Source: an uncultured Parabacteroides sp. (lineage in GTDB: Bacteria; Bacteroidota; Bacteroidia; Bacteroidales; Tannerellaceae). From it: a stretch of 51,080 bases of DNA. Where the stretch lies: the NCBI GenBank assembly GCA_949295065.1, contig CASFJQ010000017.1, forward strand, positions 1-51,080. The letters are read 5' to 3'. The notes under the pieces are model-generated. The model had not been told where the DNA came from. It saw only the letters and a program-made list of their open reading frames with translations, and searched no databases. Below, piece after piece: positions 4,483 to 50,732 of the stretch (positions are counted from its first letter, which is position 1; every line of letters starts with the position of its first letter). Made by a program: the position numbers and the translations under genes.

Positions 4483-4566
4483 AGTTGACAAGTTGACGAG
4501 TTGACGAGTTGAAAAGGGAGATGAAATATATTTCTTGTATCTGAAGCCTTGTTTCCTTGTCACCTA
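4483..4566. repeat. Palindromic intergenic repeat, family 1 (copy a)
   Basis: The left arm is GTTGACAAGTTGACGAGTTG starting at 4484. The right side is TCTGAAGCCTTG...CCTTGTCACC at about 4539-4564, reaching the cobU stop codon. The arms are complementary, so the copy can fold into a hairpin between cobU and cobT. The outer AAGTTTCG ends seen in other copies are missing here. Confidence 0.7.
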
Positions 4567-5090
4567 TTCTTCACTTCCATCGGTATTCCGCTAACCATCA
4601 GAAACACCTCGTCTGCATTCGACGCTATGAACTGATTCATCCATCCTTGCAAGTCGGTGAATTTCCTTTGAACCGGGTCGATAGGCACACCGCCCATTCC
4701 AATCTCATTGGTTACGAATATGAAATGTGCGTTTTGAGATGTAAAACGGGTGAATTCCTGTTTTGCCATTTCGAGGATTTCGTCGATTGACTTTTCCTTT
4801 TCGTTGTCGAAGAAGAAATTAGTAAGCCATAGAGTGACGCAGTCGATGATTACAACTCTGCCTTCAACATTGTGTTTGCTGAGTTCTTTTTCCTCCTCGA
4901 TGTTTGTCCATTCCGGACCGCGGTCTGCCTGATGGCGCAGGACTCTTAGACGAAACTCCTCGTCCCATATTCTGGATGTTGCCAGATAAACAGGATGAGG
5001 AGTTTCACTTAAAGCCATTTTTTGTGCGAATCCGCTCTTGCCGGAGCGTTCTCCACCAGTGACTAATGTTATTTTTTTATTCATTGTCAT
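4560..5090 (-). CDS. cobU: Bifunctional adenosylcobinamide kinase / guanylyltransferase
   Basis: Phosphorylates adenosylcobinamide and transfers GMP from GTP to give adenosylcobinamide-GDP. The Walker A loop GGERSGKS lies just after the N-terminal strand KITLVTG. The family motifs VTNEIGMGGVP and DLQGWMNQFIA follow near the C-terminus. The open frame begins at 5114, but that start would overlap the upstream S4-domain gene by 38 bp and adds only a charged RQKEKDK stretch. ATG at 5090 (or 5084) puts the start a few bases before the S4 gene's stop (5077-5079) and gives about 174-176 residues, the normal CobU length. The exact ATG is uncertain. Confidence 0.94.
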   Translation of the reverse strand: MTMNKKITLVTGGERSGKSGFAQKMALSETPHPVYLATSRIWDEEFRLRVLRHQADRGPEWTNIEEEKELSKHNVEGRVVIIDCVTLWLTNFFFDNEKEKSIDEILEMAKQEFTRFTSQNAHFIFVTNEIGMGGVPIDPVQRKFTDLQGWMNQFIASNADEVFLMVSGIPMEVKNR

Positions 5091-5691
5091 TTTGTCTTTT
5101 TCTTTCTGCCGCACGTTTGGCTTTGTTCACCGGATTGTTGCGGCTTGTTTTTCTGAGAGCAGCCGACTTTGGAGATGCAGCTACACGTTGAGCAACTGCT
5201 GAGCGTCCGAGTGATTTGCCGAACTTTGGCTGTAATGCTTCACGGAAAGCCTGTTCGCGGTCGATAGTTGGTTTTCCGGAACCGTTATTTTTTTCTTCTC
5301 TTTCCTTGGCAGCACGGCGGGCAGCAGCATATTTGTTGTATTTTCCGTAGTGCTCGCGTCTTTCGCCTGATGATGAGGCAGAAGATGACGGTTTGTTTCC
5401 GCTGAATGATTTTGACTTTGACGGGCTTCGTCTGATCTGTCTGTTTACAGGCTCACCCATAATGAGATTCTTTGATTTGCCCGGAGCCGCTTTGATTGTA
5501 CCGGCAACTGAGTGTTTGCCGAAACGAACCTGCTCGCCGTCAACAAGGACGATGTCTGTTTCGGTTACTTTCTGTCCGATACTGGGAAGTTGGCCGTTCA
5601 CGGTGACACGTCCCATCTCAATAAATATGTCTGCTTCGCGACGAGAACATAATCCCGAGTCACTTAAAAGTTTGTTTAGTCTTACTTCCAT
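5077..5691 (-). CDS. S4-domain RNA-binding protein with basic tail (pseudouridine-synthase N-domain only)
   Basis: A 204-residue protein. Residues 1-60 (MEVRLNKLLSDSGLCSRREA, then FIEMGRVTVNGQ and DIVLVDGE) form an S4 RNA-binding domain of the kind at the N-terminus of RsuA/RluB-type rRNA pseudouridine synthases. The rest is low-complexity and strongly basic (Lys, Arg, Ser, Ala), with no catalytic GRLD-type motif. It should bind RNA, perhaps rRNA, but should not isomerise uridine by itself. It lies in the middle of the cobalamin run, overlapping or abutting cobU; its link to B12 is unclear and may only be co-transcription. It could also be a truncated and re-purposed synthase. Confidence 0.82.
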   Translation of the reverse strand: MEVRLNKLLSDSGLCSRREADIFIEMGRVTVNGQLPSIGQKVTETDIVLVDGEQVRFGKHSVAGTIKAAPGKSKNLIMGEPVNRQIRRSPSKSKSFSGNKPSSSASSSGERREHYGKYNKYAAARRAAKEREEKNNGSGKPTIDREQAFREALQPKFGKSLGRSAVAQRVAASPKSAALRKTSRNNPVNKAKRAAERKRQNDNE

Positions 5692-5732
5692 TTTTTATAT
5701 TGTTGTTTTGTTTTCTTTCTGTTGTTTAAAGG

Positions 5733-5771
5733 AAAAGATACAAGTGATGAGTTGACAAAATTGTATCTTTT
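5733..5771. terminator. 11-bp inverted repeat between cbiB and the S4-domain gene
   Basis: AAAAGATACAA at 5733-5743 and TTGTATCTTTT at 5761-5771 are perfect complements around a 17-nt loop that contains a GTTGACAA fragment of repeat family 1. The spacer between the cbiB stop and the S4 gene is 117 bp. This could be an attenuating hairpin on the minus-strand transcript, or simply a repeat remnant. Confidence 0.45.
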
Positions 5772-6776: not shown

Positions 6777-7046
6777 AAGTTTCGAGGATGTTGCAAAACT
6801 AATTTAAACACAGAGACACGGAGAACACGGAGTTTTTTTATTTTATTTATTCTGAATATATTAACTCAGTGGTTTTGTGTCTCTTAGTTTTATTATTTAT
6901 GTTTCGAGTTGACAAGTTAATAAGTTGACAAGTTGACGAGGTATTCAGATATTAATTTGTGAAATAAATAGGTGTTCTGACCTTGTCAACTTGTCTCTGA
7001 AGCCTTGTCAACTTATCAATTTTTGAGTCGAGCAGCTTTCGAAACT
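6777..7046. repeat. Composite repeat: family 2 element beside or inside a family 1 element (copy b)
   Basis: This fills the 377-bp gap between divergent cbiB and the SPOR gene. Its outer ends are AAGTTTCGAGGATG (from 6779) and the complementary TCGAAACT near 7046. Next to the left end is a family 2 copy: GTTGCAAAAC, then AAACACAGAGACACGGAG and a decayed partner TTTTGTGTCTCTTAG to about 6892. Next come the family 1 arms: GTTGACAAG units at 6908-6941 and CCTTGTCAACTTGTCTC... at about 6981-7014. No gene is apparent in the stretch. Confidence 0.75.
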
Positions 7047-11006: not shown

Positions 11007-14000
11007 ATGAACAAGAAAGTTTCTACACTTTTGACAGTGGCTCTTACTCTTGGAGGCTCACTGTTGAGTAGTTCGGCTTTTGCAACAGATGTTACAGCAA
11101 CATCATTTGCTAATGCTGTTAAAAATGGCGTTTTAGATGTCAAAACATTGGCACCGGACAATGTTATTAATTTGACTCAAGATGTTAATCTAGCTGAAGG
11201 ACAGCACCTTGTAATAGTAAAAGAGGATGGTGTTACTATCACATCAAAAGATGGAAAAACATTTAAAGGACATTTGCTTTTGGCAGGTGATGGCATCACT
11301 GTTTCAAACTTGAAACTTACTTCAAAAGATTTGTTAAGTGTTGTTCGTCAGGGAAACTGGAATAGCTCAATTATTTCTGTTTATGCTAATAATGTAACTA
11401 TTAAGGGTAATACATTTGAAGGTGCTGCTAATCGTTCAGGAGCATTTAATGAAGCTATCTCTTTGGTTCCTCAGTCTAACGAGGTAAATTATGTAGTTGA
11501 AGGAAATGAATTTTCTGGATTTACTACAGATATGGGTGATAATAATAAGCTTAATACTGCAATAAGAATCAATAGAGGAAGCAATTGGATGGCGATTCAA
11601 GTAGATGATCCTAATAAGACTAATTTAGAGAATGCATTCAATGACTCTAAATTGAAAGGTATTAATAATGATGTAATAGGCGCTGGTCCTTCTGCATATC
11701 CTGGAATGTCTATTGAATCAATTGTAAAAGGAAATGAATTTGAAACAACTACTTCAAATGTTATTTTGTCTGGATTTGATGGAGATGACGTAGCTGAAAT
11801 TAGCTTTAATGAGTTAGATGAAGCTGCTGAGGAAGTTTTGAAAAAAATAGCTACAGATCAAAATAATAAACTTTCTTACAATGCTCAGTTGTATATTTCT
11901 GATGCAGAACCAAGTGAAGTGGTAGATGTAATTGAAGAAGTTGGTTTGAAAGGCGATTATGTTATATATGCAAATAATGCAAATATTGTAGATGGTGAAG
12001 GTTATCCAAATAATGATAATCCATGTATATCAGCTGATGGAGTTGAATATCTTTCATCTGCTGAATTGAACGATGTAAATCGTGGTTCTTTCTCTATTGG
12101 TTACCAGTTTGATAAAAACAATAAGGCTACAGAAAATCCTTTTGATAGAGAATTGAAAGCATTCCGTTTGGAAGGAGAAGCTACAATGGTTGTTTATTTA
12201 GCAACTTCATGGCCGGAGTCATTGAATAACAAATCGGTTATTTCTAAAGATGAATTTAACGACTGTGACTTCTTGGTTGCAGCTCCAAGTACAGATGTTA
12301 ATGAATATTACAATATTGCAGGACATAATAAATTTGGAGAATCTGTTAAGTTTGTTTCCGTCAAGGGTGACCGTTTAACTTCTGACATATATCCTGGTAA
12401 TGATGTATCTTCTATTAATGCTGCTAAGGCTGGAAAATATGCATTTGTAAATGCTCAGTTTAGAGTAGTTAATGATGCTACATGTGCAGATGAAGATGCT
12501 GGTGACTATAAGTTTACTATGCCTAATCTTTACGGTTTGTCTGATAATAACAAAAAAGTAAAAGCTTCAGAAGCTGTTGCTACAGTGGCATTGATAGGAA
12601 CAGGAAAAGATCGTATTGTAACTACAACATTTGCAACAGAAGATGCAAATAAATTATGCGTTCATGCAAGTATCGGAAATACAAGAACAGTAGAAGCAAA
12701 AGACTTCTTATCAACAGAAAAGGCTTCTGTATTCAATATTAAGTTTGTAAGTAAGACTCTTGCTGGTGATTTGACAGGAAATGAAGCAAATACTAAATCT
12801 GAATACAATAAGTATCTGACAGTTTATGGAAACGAAACTTTGGCTCATGGTTCTGATTTCACAAACTTGAGTGCTCCAGAAAGCCAGTGGATAGTTGTAG
12901 ATGTTACTGCTGACGGCGAATTTGTATTCCAAAACAGAGAAAATGCAGAAGTTAAAATCACTGTAGAGTTGTTGTCAACAGATAAAGATAATGTATATGA
13001 ATTGCGTTCTACTAATGATGATGAGTTGGCATTATTTGCTTATGTAGATGGCAATGGTGAATATAAACGTTATGGAGGTAAGGCATTGAGCGGAATGTCA
13101 GTTGAATTGACAGCTGTAACTCCAAACAAGGAAGCTGGTTATGCATCTACAGAATTGGATAATGCGGGATTGGTTCGTTTTGTATTCAATAGAAATGAAG
13201 AAAGCGATGTTCAGTTGTCTGATTTCTATGTTACTGTAAATTCAGATAATGCTGTTAAAGTAGATAAAGAGGAATCAAAAGCAGCTCAGTTCTCAGTAAT
13301 TAAGTTTGATGCATCTTCAACATCAACGGCTTTGGCAGATTCAATCTATGCAGATAATAATTATGTAATCTGGAATGCTTCAGACAAAAAGACAGAGATG
13401 GTAGAAGATGGTGACTCTATTGCTGTAGTTGCTTATGCATTCAAACAGTTGCGTGCTGATGGTAAGAATTATTACTTGAATGCAGATATGCAGTTGACAA
13501 AATTCGATGATGAAGCTGATGCTCCAAGATTCTTGGTTAAATTGTATAAGAATGGTTCTTATGGACTACTTTCTGTAGATAGAACATCTTGGAATCGTGG
13601 TGATTATTTCCGTGAAATATTGGAAGAAAATTCTGATATCTTAACATTGAACAATAACGCAGCAATTGAAGGTTCAACATCTGTATATTATGATTATACA
13701 ACTTCACATCTGTTTGACTTCAATATCTTGAAAGAAACTCCTGGTACAAGCTTCAACCACGTTCCACAGCACGTTACAATGGAAGCTGTAAATGGCGGTT
13801 ACATTGCAATGAATGCTGAAAACAAGGAAGGTATCGTTGCTCCTGTATCAACATTGAAGGCTGAATATACTAAGGAAGATTTGACATTCTGGTTGGATAC
13901 AACAGATTCAGAAGCTGTAACTCCATCATTCATGATTTCTAAAGCAGGTAACTATATGTACAATGCAGTAGATTCATTGAATGCTTACAATGATGGTACT

Positions 14001-14489
14001 GCAAGTGCTGAAAAGGCTGAAGACTTCGGTATGAAGGTTAATAATGTTGAATATGCAAAGGCTATCTTCCAGACTGCAGATTTGACTAAGGTTGGTGATA
14101 TCAACAACTACAAGTTCCAGATTGTACAGTCTGCAGACAATGCTGACGAATATGTAATCAAGAGCTTGAACGGTTACAAGTATGTTGCTGCTCACAACCA
14201 GAAACTTTATTTCACTGCGGAAGCTAAGGATGCTTTGAAGGTTATCGTTACTCGCGTTGAAGCACCAACATCTAACGAAGGCGTATCTGCAACAGAAGTT
14301 AAAGTTGTTGCTAACAACGGTTCAGTAGTAGTTAAGAACGCAGCCGGCAAGAACGTAGTAGTATCTACAATCTTAGGTCAGGTAGTAGCTAACGAAGTAT
14401 TGACATCAGACAACGCAACAATCAATGTACCTGCAGGTATCGTGGTAGTTGCTGTTGAGGGTGAAAGCTTCAAAGTAAATGTAAAATAA
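11007..14489 (+). CDS. Large secreted protein with DUF6383-type C-terminal domain
   Basis: 1160 residues. A signal peptide is plain (MNKKVSTLLTVALTLGG followed by an Ala-rich stretch to SAFA, about residue 26). Residues about 30-260 look like a parallel beta-helix (NNVTIKGNTF, NEVNYVVEGNEFSG, ESIVKGNEFETTTSN are rung-like). A long acidic central region without a family I recognise follows. The last 80 residues (VVANNGSVVVKNAAGKNVVV, then STILGQVV to VNVK) match the DUF6383 domain of Bacteroidales and resemble a type IX secretion sorting domain. Location is probably outer membrane or extracellular; function is unknown. A 450-bp leader with its own terminator precedes it. Confidence 0.8.
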   Translation: MNKKVSTLLTVALTLGGSLLSSSAFATDVTATSFANAVKNGVLDVKTLAPDNVINLTQDVNLAEGQHLVIVKEDGVTITSKDGKTFKGHLLLAGDGITVSNLKLTSKDLLSVVRQGNWNSSIISVYANNVTIKGNTFEGAANRSGAFNEAISLVPQSNEVNYVVEGNEFSGFTTDMGDNNKLNTAIRINRGSNWMAIQVDDPNKTNLENAFNDSKLKGINNDVIGAGPSAYPGMSIESIVKGNEFETTTSNVILSGFDGDDVAEISFNELDEAAEEVLKKIATDQNNKLSYNAQLYISDAEPSEVVDVIEEVGLKGDYVIYANNANIVDGEGYPNNDNPCISADGVEYLSSAELNDVNRGSFSIGYQFDKNNKATENPFDRELKAFRLEGEATMVVYLATSWPESLNNKSVISKDEFNDCDFLVAAPSTDVNEYYNIAGHNKFGESVKFVSVKGDRLTSDIYPGNDVSSINAAKAGKYAFVNAQFRVVNDATCADEDAGDYKFTMPNLYGLSDNNKKVKASEAVATVALIGTGKDRIVTTTFATEDANKLCVHASIGNTRTVEAKDFLSTEKASVFNIKFVSKTLAGDLTGNEANTKSEYNKYLTVYGNETLAHGSDFTNLSAPESQWIVVDVTADGEFVFQNRENAEVKITVELLSTDKDNVYELRSTNDDELALFAYVDGNGEYKRYGGKALSGMSVELTAVTPNKEAGYASTELDNAGLVRFVFNRNEESDVQLSDFYVTVNSDNAVKVDKEESKAAQFSVIKFDASSTSTALADSIYADNNYVIWNASDKKTEMVEDGDSIAVVAYAFKQLRADGKNYYLNADMQLTKFDDEADAPRFLVKLYKNGSYGLLSVDRTSWNRGDYFREILEENSDILTLNNNAAIEGSTSVYYDYTTSHLFDFNILKETPGTSFNHVPQHVTMEAVNGGYIAMNAENKEGIVAPVSTLKAEYTKEDLTFWLDTTDSEAVTPSFMISKAGNYMYNAVDSLNAYNDGTASAEKAEDFGMKVNNVEYAKAIFQTADLTKVGDINNYKFQIVQSADNADEYVIKSLNGYKYVAAHNQKLYFTAEAKDALKVIVTRVEAPTSNEGVSATEVKVVANNGSVVVKNAAGKNVVVSTILGQVVANEVLTSDNATINVPAGIVVVAVEGESFKVNVK

Positions 14490-14492
14490 TTC

Positions 14493-14630
14493 AGGTAACA
14501 AGTTGACGAGTTGACAAGTTGACGAGGTAAGTCAGTCAACAGTCAATAAGTCGGCAAGGTTTAGGAAAGATAGAGTTGGCAAGGAAACAAAATCCTTGTC
14601 AACTCGTCAACTGAAGCCTTGTTACCTTTA
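14493..14630. repeat. Palindromic intergenic repeat, family 1 (copy c)
   Basis: The left arm AGGTAACAAGTTGACGAG... (14493 on) and right arm CCTTGTCAACTCGTCAACTG...CTTGTTACCT (ending 14629) are complementary over most of their length around a loop of about 60 nt. It starts 3 bp after the stop of the 1160-residue gene, so it may act as its 3' hairpin. Confidence 0.75.
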
Positions 14631-14772
14631 AAGAAATAAAGTAACTCGTGATGAGCGAATCCCATTAATTTTTAGTTATTAATAATAATTGTGTAATAAA
14701 AAAGTTCTAAGCCCGATGAAGTAACTCCGTGAGGAATGAAAGGGCATGTGAATAAAAATTAAATGTCTAAGG

Positions 14773-16500: not shown

Positions 16501-16508
16501 TAATTTTG
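16501..16508 (+). promoter_or_regulatory. -7 box for the TonB receptor gene
   Basis: TAATTTTG at 16501-16508, with an imperfect TTTC at 16476-16479 about 21 bp upstream. It argues against a TTG start at 16506 and for the ATG at 16533. Confidence 0.5.
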
Positions 16509-16532
16509 CGTCGTGAAAATTATGGTAGTTAT

Positions 16533-19220
16533 ATGAATAGATTTTTATCAACGAAGTATTTATTACTTTTACTATTAACATTAATCCCTGCCTCGTTGAT
16601 TAAGGCAGTTGACTTAAAAGGAGTTGTGAAAGACAAAACCAATCAGGAACCCTTGATTGGTGCAACAGTGCAGATTCAAGGAACAACAGTTGGAGCCATA
16701 ACTGACATTGATGGTAACTTTGTTCTCTCAGGACTGGATAAAGGAACTTACACATTGATTGCTTCTTATGTGTCATATAAGGCAGAACAAATAGTAGTAA
16801 ACACTAACCAGACTACAAGTATAGAAATCGTACTTTCTCCAGATAATCAACAGATAGATGAGGTAACAGTGGTTGCACGTAAAAAGCTTGAGTCTGAACA
16901 GGCTCTTTTGATGGAAAGACAGAAAGCTTCGGTTGCAATCGAGAATATCGGTTCGAAGGAAATGAGCATCAAAGGTATTTCGACTGTTGAGGATGGAGTG
17001 AAGAAAATTACAGGTATTTCGATAGCATCGGCAGGACAGTTGATTGTGCGTGGATTGGGTGACCGTTACAGTACAACTACGTTGAACGGATTGCCAATCG
17101 CTTCACCTAACCCTGATAATAAGTTGATTCCACTTGATTTATTCCCTACTTCTACTGTAAAGAATATTACTGTAAGTAAAGTATATGAAGCAAGTTCGTT
17201 TGCGGATTATTCTGGTGCTCATATTGATATCAGTACTAAAGATCAGACTGGTGAGGATTTCTTCTCTGTCTCTTTGAATACAGGTGGTAAATTCAATACT
17301 CTCGGCCGTGAGTTTTATCAGATGGATAGAAATGGAACTTTGTTCAGAAACAATAATATGAGTTCAAATGTTCTGAATATGCCTTTGGCTGATTTTGAAG
17401 ATTATTCATCAAAGAACAATATATTCAATACAACATTCCAGACTTCAAAAAGAACAGCTCTTCCTGAATTTGGCGGTAATATCGGATGGGGAAAGACTTA
17501 TGATATTAACGGTCATAATCTCAGCATTCTTGCTTCATTAGGTATTAGCAATGGTTTGCAGACTATGCGTGATGCTACAGTGAAAACTCTTGAGGCAACA
17601 GGAACTACTCTTAACGAGTTTGAATACGACAGTTATACTAATGAGCTTAAGATTGCCGGTTTGGGTAGTTTGGCTTATCAGTTGAAAGGAGCGGATTTAT
17701 TAAGCTATACATTCTTCTATGCACGTAATGCCAGTGATACTTACCTGAATCGTGAAGGTGTGGACTATGAAGATCATCATTTGTTCGGTAGCCATAGCGT
17801 TACACATATTTACAGCTTGCAGAATCATCAGTTGAATGGAAAACACAGTTTCGGTGATAACTGGTTGCTAAACTGGGGAGCTTCATACAGTAAGACTGGT
17901 AGTGATGAACCGGACCGCCGTCAGATAATGTTTATTGAAAATAACGGAAAACTTGAATTGTTCAAATTGAACAGACAGGAAACAATGCGCTACTTTGGCC
18001 AACTTGATGAAGATGAGTTTGCTGCAAATATCAGTAGTACATATAAGTTTGGCGAAATGAACAAGATTCAGTTCGGTTTCAATATGAAGAATAAGAGCCG
18101 TGATTATAGCAGTACTCGTTTCTACTATAATCTGAACAAATTGAACCCGGAAATCTCAAATATATATGATACAGATGATTATATGAATTTTGAGAATGTA
18201 CAGAATGGAACAATCGTTATTCAGCGCAGCCGTCAGCCTCGTGACGGATATAAGGCAGGTAACGATATCTATGCAGGATATGTTTCGGCTGATTATTATC
18301 CGGTGTCAGCATTGTTGATTAACGTTGGCGTACGTTATGAATCAAGTCGCCAGTGGGTTGATTATTACGGTGATGACGGTATTGCTAAAAGAAGAAACTT
18401 GGATAAGGATGATTTCTTCCCGGCAACAAACTTCAAATATCAGTTGAACGACGAAAACAGCTTGCGACTGTCATTCTCAAGAACAATCACTCGCCCGTCA
18501 TTTATCGAAATGGCTCCGTTCCTTTATCAGGAATCATACGGATCAGCTCAGATTCGAGGTAACGAAGATTTGCAGAACGGATATAACTATAACCTGGATT
18601 TGAGATATGAATTGTTCAAGCAGAATCAGGATATGATTTCCGTTACAGGTTATTATAAATATTTGAATTCACCTATCGAACGAATTCAGACATTGGCAGG
18701 TGGTGCAGCAGTTCACTCTTTCCGTAACGCAGATGACGGTTTGGCAGCAGGTTTGGAAATTGAAATGAGAAAAGCCTTGACACGTGAATTGAAACTTGGT
18801 GTTAACGGTTCGTTCATGTACACAAACGTAAAATTGCCTGAAGGCGGTGCTTACACAAACAGCCAGAGAGCATTGCAGGGTGCTTCACCTTATTTGGTTA
18901 ATGCCGACTTGACATATTCTCCACGCATAAATGATGAGCAGGCACTTAGCGCAGCGTTGCTTTATAACTTGCAAGGTCCGCGTATCCACTCAGTAGGTAT
19001 TTCAGGATTGGGTGATGTCAAACAACGTCCGCAGCATACTTTGAATTTCAATGCTAATTATCAGATAAACGAGAAATTCTCATTGAAACTAAAAGTAAAC
19101 GATATCCTAAACCAGGCAATTGTTTTCGAACAGGAAGTTCCAAGAGAGAACACAACTGTTGAGGTGGAAAGATTCAAGAAAGGTGTGAATTTTGAAGTAG
19201 GTTTCGGATATAGATTGTGA
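16533..19220 (+). CDS. TonB-dependent outer-membrane receptor
   Basis: About 895 residues from the ATG at 16533; an upstream TTG at 16506 lies in the promoter. A signal peptide (hydrophobic run LLLLLLTLIPASL, to about residue 24) is followed by a carboxypeptidase-regulatory-like domain (LKGVVKDKTNQEPLIGATV, to about 105). A TonB box-like DEVTVVA precedes the plug (GISTVEDGVKKITGISI, IVRGLGDRYSTTTLNG). The rest alternates aromatic beta-strand segments, ending in the typical terminal strand NFEVGFGYRL. It imports or binds a ligand at the outer membrane using TonB energy; the substrate is unknown. The lipoprotein 96 bp downstream is a likely surface partner. It lacks a SusD neighbour, so it is not a standard Sus pair. 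Confidence 0.92.
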   Translation: MNRFLSTKYLLLLLLTLIPASLIKAVDLKGVVKDKTNQEPLIGATVQIQGTTVGAITDIDGNFVLSGLDKGTYTLIASYVSYKAEQIVVNTNQTTSIEIVLSPDNQQIDEVTVVARKKLESEQALLMERQKASVAIENIGSKEMSIKGISTVEDGVKKITGISIASAGQLIVRGLGDRYSTTTLNGLPIASPNPDNKLIPLDLFPTSTVKNITVSKVYEASSFADYSGAHIDISTKDQTGEDFFSVSLNTGGKFNTLGREFYQMDRNGTLFRNNNMSSNVLNMPLADFEDYSSKNNIFNTTFQTSKRTALPEFGGNIGWGKTYDINGHNLSILASLGISNGLQTMRDATVKTLEATGTTLNEFEYDSYTNELKIAGLGSLAYQLKGADLLSYTFFYARNASDTYLNREGVDYEDHHLFGSHSVTHIYSLQNHQLNGKHSFGDNWLLNWGASYSKTGSDEPDRRQIMFIENNGKLELFKLNRQETMRYFGQLDEDEFAANISSTYKFGEMNKIQFGFNMKNKSRDYSSTRFYYNLNKLNPEISNIYDTDDYMNFENVQNGTIVIQRSRQPRDGYKAGNDIYAGYVSADYYPVSALLINVGVRYESSRQWVDYYGDDGIAKRRNLDKDDFFPATNFKYQLNDENSLRLSFSRTITRPSFIEMAPFLYQESYGSAQIRGNEDLQNGYNYNLDLRYELFKQNQDMISVTGYYKYLNSPIERIQTLAGGAAVHSFRNADDGLAAGLEIEMRKALTRELKLGVNGSFMYTNVKLPEGGAYTNSQRALQGASPYLVNADLTYSPRINDEQALSAALLYNLQGPRIHSVGISGLGDVKQRPQHTLNFNANYQINEKFSLKLKVNDILNQAIVFEQEVPRENTTVEVERFKKGVNFEVGFGYRL

Positions 19221-19251
19221 TAAGTTTTTGAGTTTTTGAGTTGAAATAAAA

Positions 19252-19288
19252 ACTAATAAACTAATAAACTAATAAACTAATAAACTAA
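19252..19288 (+). repeat. Tandem 8-bp repeat ACTAATAA
   Basis: ACTAATAA is repeated about 4.6 times in the 96-bp spacer between the TonB receptor and lipoprotein genes. Such a short tandem repeat ahead of a surface-protein start could vary in copy number by slippage and change spacing or mRNA structure; that effect is inference. Confidence 0.8.
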
Positions 19289-19316
19289 AAATATAATTAT
19301 ATTAAATTTTGATCGT

Positions 19317-22821: not shown

Positions 22822-22825
22822 TAAT

Positions 22826-22986
22826 TTAAGTTTCGCAAGCTCAACTTCCAGATAACAAGTTGACAAGATGACAAGTTAACAAGATTTTTGGATAATAATT
22901 TGTGAAATTACAGGTGTTCTGATTTTGTCAACTTGTATCTGAAGCCTTGTTTACTTTATATAAGTTGAGCAACTAGCGAAACTTAA
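22826..22986. repeat. Palindromic intergenic repeat, family 1 (copy d, most complete)
   Basis: A 161-bp element. Outer inverted ends: TTAAGTTTCGCAAGCTCAAC (22826 on) and GTTGAGCAACTAGCGAAACT with TTAA (to 22986). Next inside come the left arm AACAAGTTGACAAGATGACAAG (in parts: AACAAGTTGACAAG, ATGACAAG) and the right arm TTTTGTCAACTTGTATC then TGAAGCCTTG. It lies 6 bp after the patatin-like stop. It looks like a small non-coding mobile (MITE-like) or transcribed hairpin element. Confidence 0.8.
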
Positions 22987-30937: not shown

Positions 30938-30940
30938 TTA

Positions 30941-30990
30941 TAGTTGACAAGTTGACAAGTTAACGAGTTGACAAGTTGACGAGATAATAA
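30941..30990. repeat. Family 1 repeat, left arm only (copy e)
   Basis: Tandem GTTGACAAG/GTTAACGAG units just after the metY stop. A matching right arm is not evident, so this is a half element. Confidence 0.65.
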
Positions 30991-31019
30991 GTTATAAGGA
31001 GTTTTATCTCTGACAAAAA

Positions 31020-35786: not shown

Positions 35787-35847
35787 ATATGATTCTATTT
35801 TTACTCTTGAACTGAAATAAGGATATATATCTATATGATGACATAAA

Positions 35848-35892
35848 AAGGCTGGTCGGTGCTTGTGCAAGTTCCGATTGGTCTTTTTTTTA
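35848..35892 (+). terminator. Terminator of the zeta-like operon
   Basis: GGCTGGTCGG pairs with CCGATTGGTC (several G-U) around a loop TGCTTGTGCAAGTT and is followed by eight T. The T-run also borders the dipeptidyl-peptidase promoter. Confidence 0.75.
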
Positions 35893-35907
35893 TTTTTCCT
35901 ATCTTTG
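35878..35907 (+). promoter_or_regulatory. Promoter for the dipeptidyl-peptidase III gene
   Basis: TTG at 35878-35880, 19 bp, TATCTTTG at 35900-35907. It sits directly on the upstream terminator and makes the ATG at 35937 the start. Confidence 0.7.
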
Positions 35908-35936
35908 CGCTTTGGAATAAAAAACACAATAGAAAT

Positions 35937-37994: not shown

Positions 37995-38001
37995 TTACAG
38001 G

Positions 38002-38167
38002 GGACGAGTTGACAAGGGGTGGCTGTTGCAAAACTAATTAAAACACAGAGACACGGAGTACACAGAGATTTTTATTTATTTTCAATATATCACCTCTGTG
38101 ACTTTGTGCCTCTGTGTTTGATTCTCTTTCTTTTGCAACACTCTCATCTGAAGCCTTGTCACCTCGT
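38002..38167. repeat. Family 2 palindrome nested in a family 1 repeat (copy f)
   Basis: The outer part is family 1: GACGAGTTGACAAGG (about 38003-38018) with CCTTGTCACCTCG (38154-38166). Inside is a 115-bp family 2 element with perfect 9-bp ends GTTGCAAAA (38025-38033) and TTTTGCAAC (38131-38139). Its arms AAACACAGAGACACGGAG... (38041-38067) and CTCTGTGACTTTGTGCCTC... (38094-38119) pair over about 25 bp with few mismatches. Confidence 0.85.
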
Positions 38168-38184
38168 ATCTAAAACTATTGTAA

Positions 38185-38856
38185 ATGAATACTGAAGTTC
38201 AGCAAATACGAAAAAAACTCCGTTTGGCTATGAATGGAGTTATTTCGACAAGCCTGCGAGATAAGGGAATGAACTATAAGCTTATCTTCGGTACTCCAAT
38301 ACCCGAAATAAAGCTTATTGCCGGCAGTTGCACTCCAAGTGTTTCATTGGCAGAAGATTTATGGAAAGAAGATGTCCGTGAGCTGAAAATATTGGCAACA
38401 CTTTTATATCCGGCGGGTGATTTTCGGAAAGAAACAGCTTTGCAATGGATAGCGGATATAAAATATATGGAGATAGCGGAACAGCTTTGTTCCAATCTTA
38501 TTCCAAATTCTCCTTCTGTTGAGGAAATAGTTGGTGCTTGTCTTGAAAGTGAGACTCCTTCCGAATATACATATGTATGTGCATTCCTTACATTGGCAAA
38601 TATGTATATAAAGAAAAAAACAGTTTCTCAGGAACTGGAAACCAAGTTCTTTGCTAAAGCCAAAGAAGTTTTGAATTGTGGAATTTCTGCATCACAGCGT
38701 TCGGCTTCTCTTGCTTTGAAGCGTTATGGCAGGAAAGACCGTAACTCTGCGGCAAAAGTTATGGACCTGGTTTCGGAATATGAGAATTGTGGAAAGGCGG
38801 AATTGGAAGAAATATTCAATGACTTGAAGTTTGAGTTCGAATATTATTTTGAGTGA
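38185..38856 (+). CDS. AlkD-like DNA alkylation repair / HEAT-repeat protein
   Basis: 223 residues, all helical. The segment YKLIFGTPIPEIKLIAGSC followed by SVSLAEDLWKEDVRELKILATLLYP matches the start of AlkD-type proteins (the GVxxPxLRxxA motif, then LWxxxxxExRxLAxxL). AlkD enzymes remove bulky alkylated bases through HEAT-like repeats. The later repeats are degenerate and the active-site aromatic and Asp residues cannot be placed with certainty, so enzymatic activity is uncertain. Flanked on both sides by palindromic repeats. Confidence 0.7.
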   Translation: MNTEVQQIRKKLRLAMNGVISTSLRDKGMNYKLIFGTPIPEIKLIAGSCTPSVSLAEDLWKEDVRELKILATLLYPAGDFRKETALQWIADIKYMEIAEQLCSNLIPNSPSVEEIVGACLESETPSEYTYVCAFLTLANMYIKKKTVSQELETKFFAKAKEVLNCGISASQRSASLALKRYGRKDRNSAAKVMDLVSEYENCGKAELEEIFNDLKFEFEYYFE

Positions 38857-38861
38857 TTGAG

Positions 38862-39008
38862 AGGTTTCGGAAGTTTAATTTTAGGTGACAAGTTGACAAG
38901 TAAACAAGTTGACAAGAGCATTAAATAATTTGGAGTTATTTTGACCTTGTCAACTTGTCTCTGAAGCCTTGTCAACTTGTTAAGTTGAGCATCCTGCGAA
39001 ACTTAAAT
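38862..39008. repeat. Palindromic intergenic repeat, family 1 (copy g)
   Basis: Left end GGTTTCGGAAG (degenerate), left arm GTGACAAGTTGACAAG (38885 on), right arm CCTTGTCAACTTGTCTC... (38945 on) and right end AAGTTGAGCATCCTGCGAAA with CTTAA (to about 39005). It follows the AlkD-like stop by a few bases. Confidence 0.78.
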
Positions 39009-39025
39009 TGACTAATAACATTTAA

Positions 39026-39071
39026 ATAGGCAGTTTTTGCTTGATATTCAAGCAGAGATTGCCTATTTTTG
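39026..39071 (+). promoter_or_regulatory. Promoter overlapping a terminator-like hairpin, before the 62-residue gene
   Basis: ATAGGCA (39026-39032) pairs with TGCCTAT (39060-39066), with an inner GCTTGA/TCAAGC stem and TTTTT after it. The same bases hold TTG (39041-39043) and TATTTTTG (39064-39071) at a 20-bp spacing. Confidence 0.6.
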
Positions 39072-39092
39072 TAAAAACCAAAAACTGGAACT

Positions 39093-39281
39093 ATGTGGAA
39101 AGAAAAATTAGGAGTTTATTTGATAGATGTATCTAAATATACATTTACAGGAGTGTTAATAGCATCTTTCTTTAAAGATATGGAAAATACTCGTTTCATT
39201 TATTATGTATTGGGGATGCTAGTTACATTGTTTTCATTATTGTTAGGTTTAGTACTTACAAATAAAAAAGAGGAGAAATAA
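39093..39281 (+). CDS. Small two-helix membrane protein (DUF6722-like)
   Basis: 62 residues. MWKEKLGVYLIDVSKYTFTG leads into a first hydrophobic helix (VLIASFF), then a short polar turn FKDMENTRFI and a second helix YYVLGMLVTLFSLLLGLVLT with a Lys/Glu tail. The DMEN turn and two-helix build fit the small DUF6722 family of Bacteroidales, as I recall it. Function unknown. It has its own promoter and is followed 2 bp later by another tiny membrane protein gene, with which it is surely co-transcribed. Confidence 0.7.
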   Translation: MWKEKLGVYLIDVSKYTFTGVLIASFFKDMENTRFIYYVLGMLVTLFSLLLGLVLTNKKEEK

Positions 39282-39283
39282 TT

Positions 39284-39394
39284 ATGGCAACTATATTTGT
39301 TTTGTCAATGGTTGGAATACCATGTGCTTTGGCTCTTTTATGGTTTCTGACTCCATCCGGAAAGAGATGGTTAAAGTCGAATGGATTGCTTTGA
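39284..39394 (+). CDS. 36-residue single-helix membrane protein
   Basis: The ATG at 39284 is 2 bp after the previous stop and is preceded by an AGGAGAAATAATT ribosome-binding-like stretch (39271-39283). The product has one hydrophobic helix (ATIFVLSMVGIPCALALLWF) and a basic tail LTPSGKRWLKSNGLL. The gene is too short for routine callers. Linkage to the 62-residue membrane protein suggests a two-component small membrane complex; function unknown. Confidence 0.6.
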   Translation: MATIFVLSMVGIPCALALLWFLTPSGKRWLKSNGLL

Positions 39395-39440
39395 TTAGGG
39401 CTTGTAAAATCAGCTTTATGCAAATAAAGTTCCATAAGTT

Positions 39441-39471
39441 TTTGCTTGTTCCTATAAATAAGCTACCTTTG
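39441..39471 (+). promoter_or_regulatory. Promoter for purA
   Basis: TTTG at 39441-39444, 19 bp, TACCTTTG at 39464-39471. It gives a leader of about 65 nt before the ATG at 39540. Confidence 0.78.
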
Positions 39472-39539
39472 TGTGGTTTAAGCTCTAAATGCGACAACCT
39501 CCAAAAATAAGTATATTAACAGTCTATTATATAAAGAAC

Positions 39540-40814
39540 ATGAAAGTAGATGTATTGCTAGGATTACAGTGGGGCGACGAAGGCAAGGGTAAAGTTGTCG
39601 ATGTGTTGACTCCGAAATACGATGTTGTTGCTCGTTTCCAAGGCGGCCCAAACGCAGGTCATACATTGGAATTCGACGGTGAAAAATATGTGTTGCGTTC
39701 AATTCCTTCAGGTATATTCCAGGGAGGAAAGATAAACGTAATCGGTAACGGTGTCGTATTGGATCCTGTCTTGTTCAAAGAAGAAGCTGAAGCTTTGGCT
39801 GCCAGCGGACATGACATCACAAAGCAGCTTTATATTTCTAAGAAAGCTCATTTGATTTTGCCTACTCACCGCATGTTGGACGCAGCTTATGAAGCAGCAA
39901 AAGGTGCTGGTAAGATTGGAACAACCGGTAAAGGTATTGGTCCGACTTATACAGACAAAGTTAGCCGTAATGGTGTTCGCGTTGGTGATTTGTTGCTTGA
40001 CTTCGATTCAATCTATGCAGCAGCAAAAGCAAAACACGAAGCTATTTTGCGTTCTTTGAATTATGAATATGATATTACTGAATTGGAAGCAAAATGGTTT
40101 GACTCATTGAACTATTTGAAACAATTCAAGTTGATTGATAGCGAACATGTTGTTAACAACTTGCTTAAGGAAGGCAAGTCTGTGTTGGCTGAAGGTGCTC
40201 AGGGAACAATGCTTGATGTTGACTTCGGTTCTTATCCGTTCGTTACTTCTTCAAATACTATTTGTGCAGGTTGCTGTACAGGTTTGGGTGTTTCTCCACG
40301 TAATATCGGTGAAGTATATGGTATTTTCAAGGCATACTGCACACGTGTAGGTAGTGGTCCTTTCCCAACAGAATTGTTTGATGAAGTTGGAGAGAAGATT
40401 GGGCAGTTGGGTCATGAATTCGGTGCCGTTACAGGTCGTAAACGTCGTTGCGGTTGGATTGACCTTGTGGCTTTGAAATATGCAATTACAATCAATGGTG
40501 TAAGCCAGTTGATTATGATGAAGAGTGACGTTCTTGACACATTCGACACTATCAAGGCTTGCGTTGCATACAAGATAAACGGTGAGGAAGTAACAGAATT
40601 CCCATATTCAATTGATGAAGGTGTTGAACCTGTCTATGTGGAACTTCCTGGTTGGAAAACTGATATGACAAAAATGCAGAGCGAAGATGAATTCCCTGAA
40701 GAATTCAACGCTTACCTGACATTCCTTGAAGAAGAACTTGGCGTTCGTATCAAGATTGTTTCAGTTGGTCCGGACCGCGAACAGACTATCGAAAGATATA
40801 CAGAAGAAGACTGA
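39540..40814 (+). CDS. purA: Adenylosuccinate synthetase
   Basis: About 424 residues from the ATG at 39540; the frame is open from 39489, but MKVDVLLGLQWGDEGKGK is the conserved start. GTP-dependent conversion of IMP and aspartate to adenylosuccinate, the first step to AMP. GDEGKGK is the phosphate loop with catalytic Asp, then GGPNAGHT, GTTGKGIGPTY, EGAQGTMLD and GRKRRCGWID. Full length. Own promoter and a strong terminator after it. Confidence 0.97.
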   Translation: MKVDVLLGLQWGDEGKGKVVDVLTPKYDVVARFQGGPNAGHTLEFDGEKYVLRSIPSGIFQGGKINVIGNGVVLDPVLFKEEAEALAASGHDITKQLYISKKAHLILPTHRMLDAAYEAAKGAGKIGTTGKGIGPTYTDKVSRNGVRVGDLLLDFDSIYAAAKAKHEAILRSLNYEYDITELEAKWFDSLNYLKQFKLIDSEHVVNNLLKEGKSVLAEGAQGTMLDVDFGSYPFVTSSNTICAGCCTGLGVSPRNIGEVYGIFKAYCTRVGSGPFPTELFDEVGEKIGQLGHEFGAVTGRKRRCGWIDLVALKYAITINGVSQLIMMKSDVLDTFDTIKACVAYKINGEEVTEFPYSIDEGVEPVYVELPGWKTDMTKMQSEDEFPEEFNAYLTFLEEELGVRIKIVSVGPDREQTIERYTEED

Positions 40815-40910
40815 TTGCTTTGCTTGACAAAAAAGCAGGTTGGCACGGTTTAAATCCGTATCAAATTGGAATTTATCCGACAAAAGGTCTTGAATTTGAC
40901 GAAATAGGTA

Positions 40911-40962
40911 AAAATGGCAGAAAAATGTTTCCTTTATAAGGGCTTTTTCTGCCATTTTTTAT
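40911..40962 (+). terminator. Terminator of purA
   Basis: AAAATGGCAGAAAAA (40911-40925) pairs perfectly with TTTTTCTGCCATTTT (40944-40958) and is followed by more T. It lies about 95 bp after the stop; the stretch between holds no ORF. Confidence 0.92.
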
Positions 40963-41016
40963 TTGGCAAACTTTTTGCTATTATATTGATAAACAATAAT
41001 TAGAAATTTATTTTAT

Positions 41017-41700
41017 ATGATTTATTGGATTATATTTATCGGCGTAGCCGTGTTGAGTTGGTTGGTTTCTTCACGTTTGCAGAAGAAATTTGAGTTGTAT
41101 TCGGAAATACCTTTGCCTTCGGGTATGACAGGTAGAGATGTAGCAGAAAAGATGTTGCACGATAATGGTATTTACGATGTAAAAGTGACATGTACACCGG
41201 GACATTTGACAGACCATTACAACCCGATGGACAAAACAGTGAACTTGAGTGAAAGTGTATATTATAGTAACAGTGTTGCAGCTGCTGCCGTTGCTGCCCA
41301 TGAATGCGGACACGCTGTTCAGCATGCTGTAGCTTATGCTCCGTTGAAGATGCGTTCAGCATTGGTGCCGGTTGTAAGCTTTGCTTCAAATATTGTGCAG
41401 TGGGTTTTGCTTGGTGGAATGCTTTTGCTTCATTCTTTCCCTCAGCTTATGCTTTTCGGTATAATCTTGTTTGCTTCGACAACATTGTTCAGTTTGATAA
41501 CATTGCCAGTTGAGATTAATGCCAGCCAGCGAGCTTTGGTTTGGTTGAGCCGTGCAGGTATAACAAATGTTGCAATACATGATAAGGCTGAAGATGCTTT
41601 GCGTTCAGCTGCTTACACATACGTTGTCGCTGCTTTGGGTTCTTTGGCTACATTGTTATATTATGTAATGATGTTCCTTGGTGCTAATCGTGATGAATAA
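41017..41700 (+). CDS. Membrane zinc metallopeptidase (YugP family)
   Basis: 227 residues. N-terminal membrane helix (MIYWIIFIGVAVLSWLVSS), zinc-protease motif His95-ECG-His99 in AAHECGHAVQHA, then two to three more helices (NIVQWVLLGGMLLLHSFPQ, LMLFGIILFASTTLFSLITL, and a C-terminal one). The IPLPSGMTGRDVAEKML and DHYNPMDKTVNLSESVY segments are typical of the DUF-type neutral zinc metallopeptidases of the YugP group. Likely an integral inner-membrane protease; substrate unknown. Monocistronic. Confidence 0.9.
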   Translation: MIYWIIFIGVAVLSWLVSSRLQKKFELYSEIPLPSGMTGRDVAEKMLHDNGIYDVKVTCTPGHLTDHYNPMDKTVNLSESVYYSNSVAAAAVAAHECGHAVQHAVAYAPLKMRSALVPVVSFASNIVQWVLLGGMLLLHSFPQLMLFGIILFASTTLFSLITLPVEINASQRALVWLSRAGITNVAIHDKAEDALRSAAYTYVVAALGSLATLLYYVMMFLGANRDE

Positions 41701-41736
41701 AAGTATTTAATAAATAGGGACTATTGGAACTAAAAT

Positions 41737-41785
41737 AGGGTTCGGAATGTTTCATGATATATGAAATGTTCCGAACTTTGTTTTT
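41737..41785 (+). terminator. Terminator of the metallopeptidase gene
   Basis: GTTCGGAATGTTTCAT pairs with ATGAAATGTTCCGAAC around GATAT, followed by TTTG TTTTT. A long, nearly perfect hairpin 40 bp after the stop. Confidence 0.8.
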
Positions 41786-41799
41786 ATATGGACGAGAGG

Positions 41800-41870
41800 G
41801 ATAAGTTGACAGAATATTTGTTTGTATAAAATATACCTTGTCAACTTGTCTCTGTAGCCTCGTCAACTAT
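41800..41870. repeat. Family 1 repeat, short copy (h)
   Basis: Left arm reduced to GGATAAGTTGACAG, right arm CCTTGTCAACTTGTCTC then TGTAGCCTCGTCAACT. Upstream at 41740-41780, CGGAATGTTTCATG and CATATGAAATGTTCCG form a separate hairpin, probably the metallopeptidase terminator. Confidence 0.65.
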
Positions 41871-41884
41871 AAATATCTTCATCT

Positions 41885-42928
41885 ATGCTAGCATATACAT
41901 TTATAGAAAAAGGAAAATTCCAGCTTCAGGAGAAGAAGAAGCCTGAAATATTGGATTCGCGTGATGCATTGGTGCGTATAACATTGGGAAGTATATGCAC
42001 AAGTGATCTTCATATAAAGCATGGTAGTGTTCCGCGTGCTGTTCCCGGTATAACAGTCGGGCACGAAATGGTAGGAGTTGTCGAGCAAGTCGGCAAGGAT
42101 GTCCGTTCCGTAAAACCTGGTGATAGGGTTGCTGTCAATGTTGAGACATTTTGTGGCGAATGTTTCTTCTGCCGTAACGGTTACGTAAATAATTGTACAG
42201 ACGAAAACGGAGGTTGGGCTTTAGGGTGCCGTATTGACGGCGGACAAGCAGAATATGTACGTGTTCCTTATGCAGACCAGGGATTGAGTATTATTCCTGA
42301 TTCAGTAACAGACGAGCAGGCTCTCTTTGTGGGAGACATTTTGGCAACAGGATTTTGGGCCGCACGCATTTCTGATATCAAACAGGAAGATACGGTTCTT
42401 ATAATAGGAGCTGGTCCGACAGGAATTTGTACTCTCCTCTGTGTTATGCTAAAATCTCCACGGAAAATCATCGTGTGTGAAAAGTCGGAAGAGAGAAGAG
42501 ATTTTGTCAGGAAACATTATTCCGGAGTGATTGTAACCAATCCTGAAAATTGCAAATCCGATGTGCTTGACAATTCATTGCACGGAGGTGCAGATGTAGT
42601 GCTTGAAGTTGCCGGAACAGATGACACATTCCGCATGGCTTGGGATTGTGCCCGTCCAAACGCAACGGTCGCAATAGTTGCCCTCTATGACAAACCTCAG
42701 ATTTTGCCTTTGCCTGAAATGTATGGGAAGAATCTGACATTCAAGACGGGTGGAGTTGACGGTTGCGATTGCCCGGAAATATTAAAGCTTATATCTGAAG
42801 GAAAGATTGATACGACTCCGCTGATAACTCACCGTTTCCCTTTGAGTGATATAGAGCGTGCCTATCAGGTTTTCGAGAACAGAGAAGACGGAGTGATAAA
42901 GGTGGCAATAGAGGGGAAAATTCTGTGA
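41885..42928 (+). CDS. Zinc-dependent medium-chain alcohol dehydrogenase
   Basis: 347 residues. Catalytic zinc ligands Cys38 and His60-Glu61 (GHEMVG). Structural zinc cysteines Cys90, Cys93, Cys96 and Cys104 (CGECFFCRNGYVNNC). Rossmann motif GAGPTG at 175-180. It oxidises or reduces an alcohol or polyol with NAD(P); the substrate cannot be read off. It ends 48 bp before the corrin operon on the same strand, with a weak TATCTTTA between, so co-transcription is possible. A role in cobalamin synthesis is unproven; the neighbour may be incidental. Confidence 0.9.
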   Translation: MLAYTFIEKGKFQLQEKKKPEILDSRDALVRITLGSICTSDLHIKHGSVPRAVPGITVGHEMVGVVEQVGKDVRSVKPGDRVAVNVETFCGECFFCRNGYVNNCTDENGGWALGCRIDGGQAEYVRVPYADQGLSIIPDSVTDEQALFVGDILATGFWAARISDIKQEDTVLIIGAGPTGICTLLCVMLKSPRKIIVCEKSEERRDFVRKHYSGVIVTNPENCKSDVLDNSLHGGADVVLEVAGTDDTFRMAWDCARPNATVAIVALYDKPQILPLPEMYGKNLTFKTGGVDGCDCPEILKLISEGKIDTTPLITHRFPLSDIERAYQVFENREDGVIKVAIEGKIL

Positions 42929-49201: not shown

Positions 49202-49368
49202 GTATCGTTTTAACAGTATATTATTAAATTTCATTTGTGTGGATGTATACTATTTTAGTTGAATAAAATTTACATATTCAAACTAAACTGCTTATAATAC
49301 AGAATATTTCTGTATTTTTATATTGTAATTTGACTGATTGATTAGTAATTTAATTTAAAATTAATACT

Positions 49369-50514
49369 ATGAATGTGAAACAACTAAGCATGCTGGTTTT
49401 TTCCGCACTATTATGTGCCTGTCAGCCTGTAAAAAAACAAACAACAATAAATGGCGTTTTGGCTGGTATTGAGAATGATACTTTGATTGTAAATTATTTT
49501 GATGTATCTGACTTGACACGGAGTAATATACATAGGGATACTATTGCTCTGCAAAATGGTAGATTCAGTTATCAGTTGGAAAACGATAGTGTACCAATGG
49601 AAGCTTATTTTTATGTTCTGCCGCGTAATGGAGCAAAAGCATCATCTTTGCATAAAACTGTTAGTGTGGTGACATTTCCAGGTGAAACGGTTGAATTAAG
49701 TGGTTCTATTGATAATTATAAAGTGAAAGGAAATGCATTCCATGAGGCATACGAAGAAGTTCGTAGTATATGCAAACCTTATCAGGATAAAATGAATGAA
49801 GTATCTGAAGTAATTATGAATATGCAGAGTGATGGAACTTTAACACCTGAACGTCTCGATTCTTTGCGTCAAGTGTTTATGCCTATAAACACAGAAATGA
49901 AAAAGGAGATGGAAGGCTATATTCGTCAACATCCGGATGAAGATATTTCTGTTTATATGATATATGATTTAGGGAAGGATGCTGGTGAACTTCTCGATAT
50001 TATTGGTGAGAAGGCTCAAAATGGTTGTATGGCTCCACTCTATCGTGCGATTAAAGAGGCTATTGCTAATCAGAAAGTTCGTGAAGAAGCACGGAATAAT
50101 ATAAAAGAGGGTGTTGCCGCTCCAGATTTTACTTTGAAAGATATAAATGGAAATAATTTGAGTTTATTTTCTTTGCGTGGAAAATATATAATACTTGATT
50201 TTTGGGGAAGTTGGTGTGGATGGTGTATTAAAGGCATACCAGATATGAAGAAATATTATGAAAAGTATAAAGACAAGATGGAGATACTAGGTGTGGCTTG
50301 CCGTGATACAGAAGAAAAATGGAAAGAAGCAGTTAATAAATATGAACTTCCATGGTTGCATGTGTTTAATTCTGATGATGCTGATATTACTATGAAATAT
50401 GGTATAGAGGGCTATCCTACCAAAATTGTTATTGATCCAGAAGGTAAGGTTTCAAAGATAGTAGTTGGTGAGGATCCTGCTTTTTATGACTACTTGGATG
50501 AGTTGTTTAGATGA
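49369..50514 (+). CDS. TlpA-like thiol-disulfide lipoprotein with DUF4369-type N-domain
   Basis: 381 residues. Lipoprotein signal ending LLCAC (Cys18). Residues about 25-130 resemble DUF4369 (TINGVLAGIENDTLIVNYFD, then RDTIALQNGRFSYQL). A helical linker leads to a thioredoxin-like domain (about 245-381) with APDFTLKDINGNNLSLFSLRGK, WGSWCGWC (Cys283 and Cys286), and the cis-Pro segment EGYPTKIV. It probably reduces or isomerises envelope disulfides, for example in cytochrome maturation or oxidative-stress defence. Common in several copies per Bacteroides genome. Alone in its unit. Confidence 0.92.
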   Translation: MNVKQLSMLVFSALLCACQPVKKQTTINGVLAGIENDTLIVNYFDVSDLTRSNIHRDTIALQNGRFSYQLENDSVPMEAYFYVLPRNGAKASSLHKTVSVVTFPGETVELSGSIDNYKVKGNAFHEAYEEVRSICKPYQDKMNEVSEVIMNMQSDGTLTPERLDSLRQVFMPINTEMKKEMEGYIRQHPDEDISVYMIYDLGKDAGELLDIIGEKAQNGCMAPLYRAIKEAIANQKVREEARNNIKEGVAAPDFTLKDINGNNLSLFSLRGKYIILDFWGSWCGWCIKGIPDMKKYYEKYKDKMEILGVACRDTEEKWKEAVNKYELPWLHVFNSDDADITMKYGIEGYPTKIVIDPEGKVSKIVVGEDPAFYDYLDELFR

Positions 50515-50586
50515 CAGAAGCATTGTATGAAGAAGGAAGTGGATTTAGATGAAGTTATTATGAAGTTATTTGGTTTTAGTTTTTTT

Positions 50587-50732
50587 AGTTGACAAGTTGA
50601 CAAATAAAAGAATGGCTATGTGAGTTATTTTTTCTATATATGTTATCTGAAATATTTCGAATTTTGATACCTTGCGAATATAACTCGATTAAACCTTCAA
50701 GTCTTTATTTAAGTACCCTCGTCAACTTGCCC
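50587..50732. repeat. Family 1 repeat, degenerate copy (i)
   Basis: AGTTGACAAGTTGACAAA (50587 on) and the distant right arm CCTCGTCAACTTGCCCCCTAA (in parts: CCTCGTCAAC, TTGCCCCC; 50717-50733). Between them is AT-rich DNA without an ORF. The rest of the gap 50515-50810 shows nothing else. Confidence 0.6.

Follow-up and report, generated by a model that had tools for sequence, protein, structure and literature searches.

A stop-hugging palindromic repeat family of an uncultured Parabacteroides sp. as a probable miniature element with IS4-family ends

BrickBuilt of Porphyromonas gingivalis is, among the partial descriptions considered here, the nearest published case that we found to the repeats reported below. 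According to the part of its description used (PMC4596501), this miniature inverted-repeat transposable element (MITE) has 19 copies in strain ATCC 33277, with 23-nt units and terminal inverted repeats (TIRs) like those of ISPg1 and ISPg9. Our subject is a family of palindromic intergenic repeats in an uncultured Parabacteroides sp., which an initial annotation had placed at nine sites in contig CASFJQ010000017.1 of assembly GCA_949295065.1 (the window, that is, the whole analysed stretch of 51,080 nt). Within the limits of that source, both are species-limited, intergenic MITEs of Bacteroidales that have inner tandem units (a minisatellite in BrickBuilt), TIRs resembling those of insertion sequences (ISs) and no transposase remnant. 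Unlike BrickBuilt, the present family has more than 150 core matches, units of 8–9 bp that together form a palindrome, IS4-family ends and a preference for sites near stop codons. QMITE2 of Coxiella burnetii, in the excerpt of its description considered (PMC10969869), is similar in having many truncated copies that have lost TIRs and repeats, resemble repetitive extragenic palindromes (REPs) and lie mainly 3′ of open reading frames (ORFs), but its host is unrelated and the likeness is to its description, not to its sequence. With REP/REPIN systems the family has in common that it consists of intergenic, high-copy hairpins; it differs in that no RAYT was found here and in that long copies carry TIRs and target duplications.

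We estimate a probability of roughly 0.85 that the long form of the repeat is a type II MITE, with the ends of a Bacteroidales IS4-family IS, transposed in trans into a 9-bp target near ATAAWTTAT. The repeats add a new family to a class of elements that was known before. The initial annotation had left the choice between a MITE and a REP-like element, and the former agrees with the IS-family TIRs, the 9-bp duplications in a minority of full copies, the expansion in one genome, the empty sites in relatives and the lack of ORFs, which had been claimed correctly; as is usual for MITEs, the element is short (50–1000 bp), non-coding and present in high copy number.

Ends, target sites and host range of the long form

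Of 123 genomes from the taxonomic family, 8 contain the exact sequence TCAAGTTTCGCAAG, among them the host genome with 32 places. In three others, G073, G136 and G100, partial transposase frames lie beside this sequence; the frame in G073 scores above the cut-off of the NCBIfam IS4 model NF049925 (310 bits, 2.5e-92), and those in G136 and G100 match the same model below it. G017 contains a complete IS copy, with a mismatch in one end and the transposase in pieces. An unannotated IS4-type frame on the Bacteroides salyersiae plasmid NZ_CP081900.1 is flanked by two exact TCAAGTTTCGCAAG ends; it is 48.8% identical over the whole query and extends to near the record origin. The Segatella hominis plasmid NZ_CP137560.1 carries a transposase, annotated as such, flanked by ends with one mismatch each, and in G001 one end type continues as TTCAACTTGC, near to the CTCAACTT of the element. 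The Bacteroidales IS4-family ISs with TCAAGTTTCGCAAG ends, on NZ_CP081900.1 and in genomes of the family, thus have 14-bp ends identical to those of the element, mostly in AT-rich flanks, but encode a transposase, which the element does not. ISBf8-type elements are distant relatives, with 33.7% identity to the transposase query over 77%. TIRs in common with an autonomous element, as expected of a MITE, are therefore present in the form of TCAAGTTTCGCAAG at IS4-family elements elsewhere. The initial annotation had proposed a search for a transposase with matching ends, and IS4-type ones are indeed found in other genomes and on plasmids, but not in the host assembly.

Within the genus, the transposase query has matches in 4 of 38 genomes. 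The host genome has 103 TIR-like places at no more than one mismatch, compared with 10 for the reversed control. As candidates for a parent IS, 20 further TIR-like regions were read by eye and rejected, looking mostly like miniature elements and in a few cases like chance matches; the sole DDE_Tnp_1 gene of the host (contig C63) has no TIR match in its locus. The same ends appear to have served several non-autonomous families.

Target duplications are present above chance. Full copies have flank words of at least 8 bp in common in 10 of 35 cases (permuted mean 1.2, maximum 6 in 2,000 permutations), and when the register is fixed by reading the element as TCAAG...CTTGA, 6 of 34 full copies have flanking 9-mers that match at 8 or more positions (permuted mean 0.78, maximum 5 in 5,000 permutations). 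Examples are ATAATATTT/ATAATATTT and ATTAATAAC/ATTAATAAT. The long form accordingly has the duplications of a MITE in a significant minority of its full copies; in most of them they are missing, eroded or shifted out of the register. The ninth base of the duplication is C beside the left end in several copies and T in the right duplicate, e.g., ATAAATAAC/ATAAATAAT.

When 64 left and 57 right flanks are read toward the element, they have a common preference for T at −10, A at −8, T at −6, A at −4 and a pyrimidine at −3. Combined with the 9-bp duplication, this preference suggests a palindromic target near ATAAWTTAT, the exact form of which is deduced from the flanks. The TAA in this target would put the end of a long copy 5 nt after a TAA stop. 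Where a gene end faces an intact repeat (−5 to 60 nt; 28 cases), the distance is 4–6 nt in 15 cases, 7 of them at 5 nt, and 13 of these 15 stops are TAA, compared with 136 of 271 ORF ends overall (ORFs of at least 80 codons were used in place of gene calls, which makes 5′ ends rough). The target preference can explain the stop-hugging of many long copies without a role in transcription.

Judged from the ends, the mover of the long form was very probably an IS4-type transposase, and mobilization would have been in trans. Such a transposase would excise the element at its 14-bp TCAAGTTTCGCAAG ends, and the excised element would be joined to a staggered 9-bp target near ATAAWTTAT. The TAA within the target would place many copies about 5 nt after TAA stops, where they would do little harm. 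We infer that the source IS has been lost or is unassembled.

The host assembly comprises 2.80 Mb in 70 contigs, is 86.8% complete, and includes the window as its contig C17. Judged by adenylosuccinate synthetase, its closest named genomes are Candidatus Parabacteroides intestinavium (93%) and P. gordonii (88%), so that the host very likely belongs to Parabacteroides. The core of the repeat, searched on both strands with up to three mismatches, matches 153 places in it, of which 100 were retrieved as DNA for analysis, and the reversed control gives none, so the family recurs well beyond the window; the density of about one copy per 5–6 kb given by the initial annotation holds for the window, but the genome is sparser, with about one per 18 kb (153 in 2.8 Mb). 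Arbitrary host stretches that lie mostly between the listed places (236.5 kb) gave 12 profile matches. The core has no match in 58 relatives, 34 of the same genus, and the profile, at E values up to 10, finds no copy in 351,775 bp from seven relatives (18 stretches), in 29 cobU loci or in 80 named loci. The core pattern is also absent from the genome contig collection and the viral contigs searched; the outer arm has no match in viral contigs, and a full copy has none in phages. A scan of viral contigs with the 14-base TIR returned at least 120 stretches, a word so short being expected there by chance. Plasmid matches to the element (47 records) are short likenesses of the tandem units, covering 24–58% of the query among the matches listed, and were set aside as chance or as partition-site repeats; the one match inspected adjoins a partition gene. 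This match, on Escherichia coli plasmid pP16-1, has 38 bases with 89.5% likeness to the tandem units of the arm near a parA/soj-type partition gene, and probably reflects chance or partition-site repeats. So far, no other species is known to have undergone this expansion. A self-comparison of spacers from seven relatives (20–60 kb each), made in search of analogous repeats, showed few interspersed ones. Among the papers listed in literature searches on MITEs of Parabacteroides and Bacteroidales, no account of this family was found, although one may exist elsewhere.

Copies in the window, their fold and empty sites in relatives

A repeat copy is present at each of the nine sites reported for the window. 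With up to two mismatches allowed, the window has 29 matches to the pattern CTTGTCAACTTGTC, compared with 0.39 expected, and they cluster at these nine sites. A profile built from full-length copies, as had been proposed, recovers seven of them and misses those at 38002 and 50587, which are known by pattern matches only. The copies are as follows.

4482..4562, + strand: short form without TIRs in the cobU–cobT spacer; the profile match ends at 4559
6904..7046, + strand: copy with left TIR not intact and right end nearly complete, between divergent genes and adjoining a second repeat (6786–6904); found by the profile
14490..14650, + strand: copy without left TIR and with degenerate right end, immediately 3′ of the stop of gene 11007–14489; found by the profile
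22826..22986, + strand: full-length MITE with TIR, left arm of tandem units, loop, right arm with TTTGTCAACTTGTATCTGAAGCC, and TIR
30938..30998, + strand: left arm only, of tandem GTTGACAAG-type units, immediately 3′ of the stop of gene 29657–30937; found by the profile
38002..38167, + strand: copy interrupted by the second repeat (38021–38142); pattern matches only
38864..39004, + strand: near full-length copy with degenerate left TIR; profile match to model positions 3–154
41800..41870, + strand: shortened copy; profile match to model positions 43–130
50587..50732, + strand: degenerate copy with a long loop; pattern matches to a left arm (50587–50604) and a right arm (50718–50731) about 115 bp apart

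The full-length copy matches the profile at 22828–22984 (model 1–154, 155 bits), and its TIR starts 4 nt past a TAA stop. A stop codon within a few bases, which had been ascribed to most copies, is found for six of the nine (4482, 14490, 22826, 30938, 38002 and 38864); of the others, the 6904 copy lies between divergent genes, and a stop is 99 nt away from the copy at 41800 and 72 nt away from that at 50587. The copy placed inside the cobalamin operon is confirmed, since Pfam identifies the genes on either side of the 4482 copy as cobU and cobT. The TGA stop of cobU (4560–4562, minus strand) falls within a GGTGACAAGG unit, the outermost unit of this copy. No Rfam family matches within the window at its gathering score.

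The alignment of full copies is clean across about 154 bp and two further bases at each end; the length is about 160 bp. The order of the long form is TIR TCAAGTTTCGCAAG, CTCAACTT, tandem GTTGACAAG-type units of 8–9 bp, loop, CTTGTCAACTTGTATCTGAAGCCTTGTTAACTT, AAGTTGAGCAA and TIR; 23 of 40 long copies have a loop of 39–42 bp. The outer inverted ends AAGTTTCG/CGAAACTT described initially are real but incomplete, as the repeats reach TCAAGTTTCGCAAG. For the copy at 22826–22986, the predicted folding energy is −50.7 kcal/mol (z −6.56) on one strand and −49.7 kcal/mol (z −6.65) on the other. The asymmetry of the right arm around TCTGAAGCC had been taken to argue for more than a plain hairpin. It is mostly accounted for by the predicted fold, because TATCTG is base-paired with CAGATA in the left arm and the following AAGCC... 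forms a one-sided bulge that is unpaired or locally paired. The interior is a palindrome of degenerate 8–9-bp units with a strong predicted hairpin, and has no sign of selection as such.

Comparison of orthologous spacers, another step that had been suggested, shows that the element is absent from relatives at two loci. The gene cobU was found in 35 of 38 genomes of the genus, and the loci of the host and 29 other genomes were compared. None of the 29 has the element in the cobU–cobT spacer, which it fills in the window; in 27, the next frame starts within 75 nt or overlaps, and two have a longer stretch of other sequence. Downstream of the M49 peptidase gene, the spacer is 190 nt in the window and is occupied by the split 38002 copy, whereas the same spacer, judged by eye, is at most 3 nt in Parabacteroides gordonii and another Parabacteroides. 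In another genome of the genus (G008), the cobU–cobT spacer contains a different tandem palindrome array, of GCTCCAACACTTGGAGG repeats.

Short forms, gene ends and the weighing of alternatives

Several observations weigh against transposition of an IS4-type MITE as the full explanation. The host assembly has no match to the IS4-type transposase query at E ≤ 10, and in G001, which has eight TIR places, the sole transposase match (E ≤ 1e-20) lies elsewhere. In the fixed register, 28 of 34 full copies agree at no more than 7 of 9 positions (two at 7, 26 below 7), two of these 26 having a 9-bp common word that is one or two bases out of place. No clear duplication flanks the three complete IS copies found outside the host (agreement at 4 of 9 positions in G017, 6 in B. 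salyersiae and 3 in Segatella), which either speaks against the model or is due to age. A survey of 162 profile places in 374 kb of host sequence found both outer ends in 44, the left in 28, the right in 22 and neither in 68; with a stricter limit, both ends are intact in only 34 of the 162, one in 53 and none in 75. Finally, 32 short copies with both inner boundaries have no target duplication (p = 0.27).

The short forms can be read as decayed copies, which we consider likelier than mobility of their own. The alternative, which concerns the short form and is compatible with an IS4-type MITE as the long form, is that the TIR-less hairpin AGTTGACAAG...CTTGTCAACT is itself a REP-like mobile unit that inserts near stops without duplication, and that IS4-type ends later flanked it to give the long form. 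We regard this as unlikely, even though the 32 short copies, besides lacking duplications, are bounded near the limits of the inner module (model 18–30 and 120–136), and the flanks of TIR-less copies contain hardly any, and no clear, TIR remnant. The loops of copies without both outer ends are also variable (8–89 bp in 35 copies), unlike the predominant 39–42 bp of long forms, 38 of 60 neighbouring 3′ ends lie within 10 nt of TIR-less copies, and one short copy occupies a spacer that relatives have without the element. However, the host assembly contains no Y1_Tnp (RAYT) gene, the core is common to short and long forms, and a slight excess of TIR-like words is found in left flanks (mean best 7.48, compared with 7.17, sd 0.11), although not in right ones (7.21, compared with 7.18). 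Truncated QMITE2 copies that have lost their TIRs likewise resemble REPs, according to the part of its description considered (PMC10969869). Still more doubtful is the extended proposal that the TIR-less core, an independently mobile REP-like unit entering at stops without duplication, could supply a new stop (the TGA of GTTGACAAG or GGTGACAAG), and that IS4-type ends captured it at a later stage and increased its spread.

It appears improbable that the elements are structured 3′-end signals, such as terminators or mRNA stabilizers, that spread because they are useful. The predicted hairpin is strong on both strands (z about −6.6), and 60 of 125 neighbouring 3′ ends lie within 10 nt of a copy, compared with 8 of 137 neighbouring 5′ ends; in 87 tandem spacers, 35 copies are at most 10 nt from the 3′ end, with 17.2 expected under uniform placement. 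Orientation in tandem spacers is nevertheless unbiased (45 co-directional, 44 counter-directional; 24 copies are in divergent and 18 in convergent spacers, after exclusion of 9 of the 162 places as lying within ORFs and of 22 as lying at the edges of stretches). Compensatory change is seen in only 2 of 30 consensus pairs, with an unfavourable covariation term of +0.75 (22 copies), and none of 16 terminator-like sites in window positions 22001–42000 lies within a copy, one site with a T tail being located just before the 41800 copy. The target preference, moreover, accounts for the stop distance of many long forms. The effect on mRNA ends considered in the initial annotation is therefore unsupported by orientation, covariation or terminator scan in spite of the hairpin, and a selected 3′-end role is not supported; side effects on neighbouring genes are possible. 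Small, intergenic, high-copy palindromes without an ORF would also be expected of a genuine REP/REPIN system with a RAYT (Y1 transposase) as its mover, but such a system is extremely improbable here. PF01797 finds nothing in the host genome yet has matches in 5 of 14 control genomes, so that, with no Y1_Tnp in an assembly of 86.8% completeness, the term REP-like is not supported in the strict sense of a RAYT partner. Transposition of the IS200/IS605 type is not known to make target duplications, whereas full copies have them above chance.

Other repeats of the genome and biological meaning

A second core, GCTTCGCATAGCC (GCTTCGCATAGCCG...AGTTAAAAGC), was found at 11 places (L131–L141), at three of them with the same TIR (L063 = L131, L088 = L133 and L145 = L138), and probably represents a further MITE belonging to the same family of ISs. 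Forms with the same ends also exist at about 50 bp (L150) and about 90 bp (L148). The second repeat of the window, at 6786–6904 and 38021–38142, has ends TGTTGCAAAAC...TTTTGCAACA and tandem ACACAGAGA-type units. It is present at 39 places in the host genome and at one place each in G026 and G040, while G056, from another family, has 38 of a sister form; the remaining 55 of 59 genomes have none. This repeat is nested in the loops of the 38002 copy and of one other copy (L034), and by coordinates possibly also at C15:16750 and C24:6092. Tandem TGAAAA...TTTTCA palindromes at window positions 33562–33681, with similar words in another host stretch (L275), represent one more small repeat family, and a tandem AAACTAAT array at 19250–19297 lies 3′ of the ORF 16506–19220.

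The location of these intergenic palindromes at gene ends, for the long form at least, would follow from the target of the transposase, not from a function in transcription. Parabacteroides gains a large, single-species MITE family that is tied by its ends to an IS4-type family. Such repeats lengthen the spacers of operons and can replace a stop codon.

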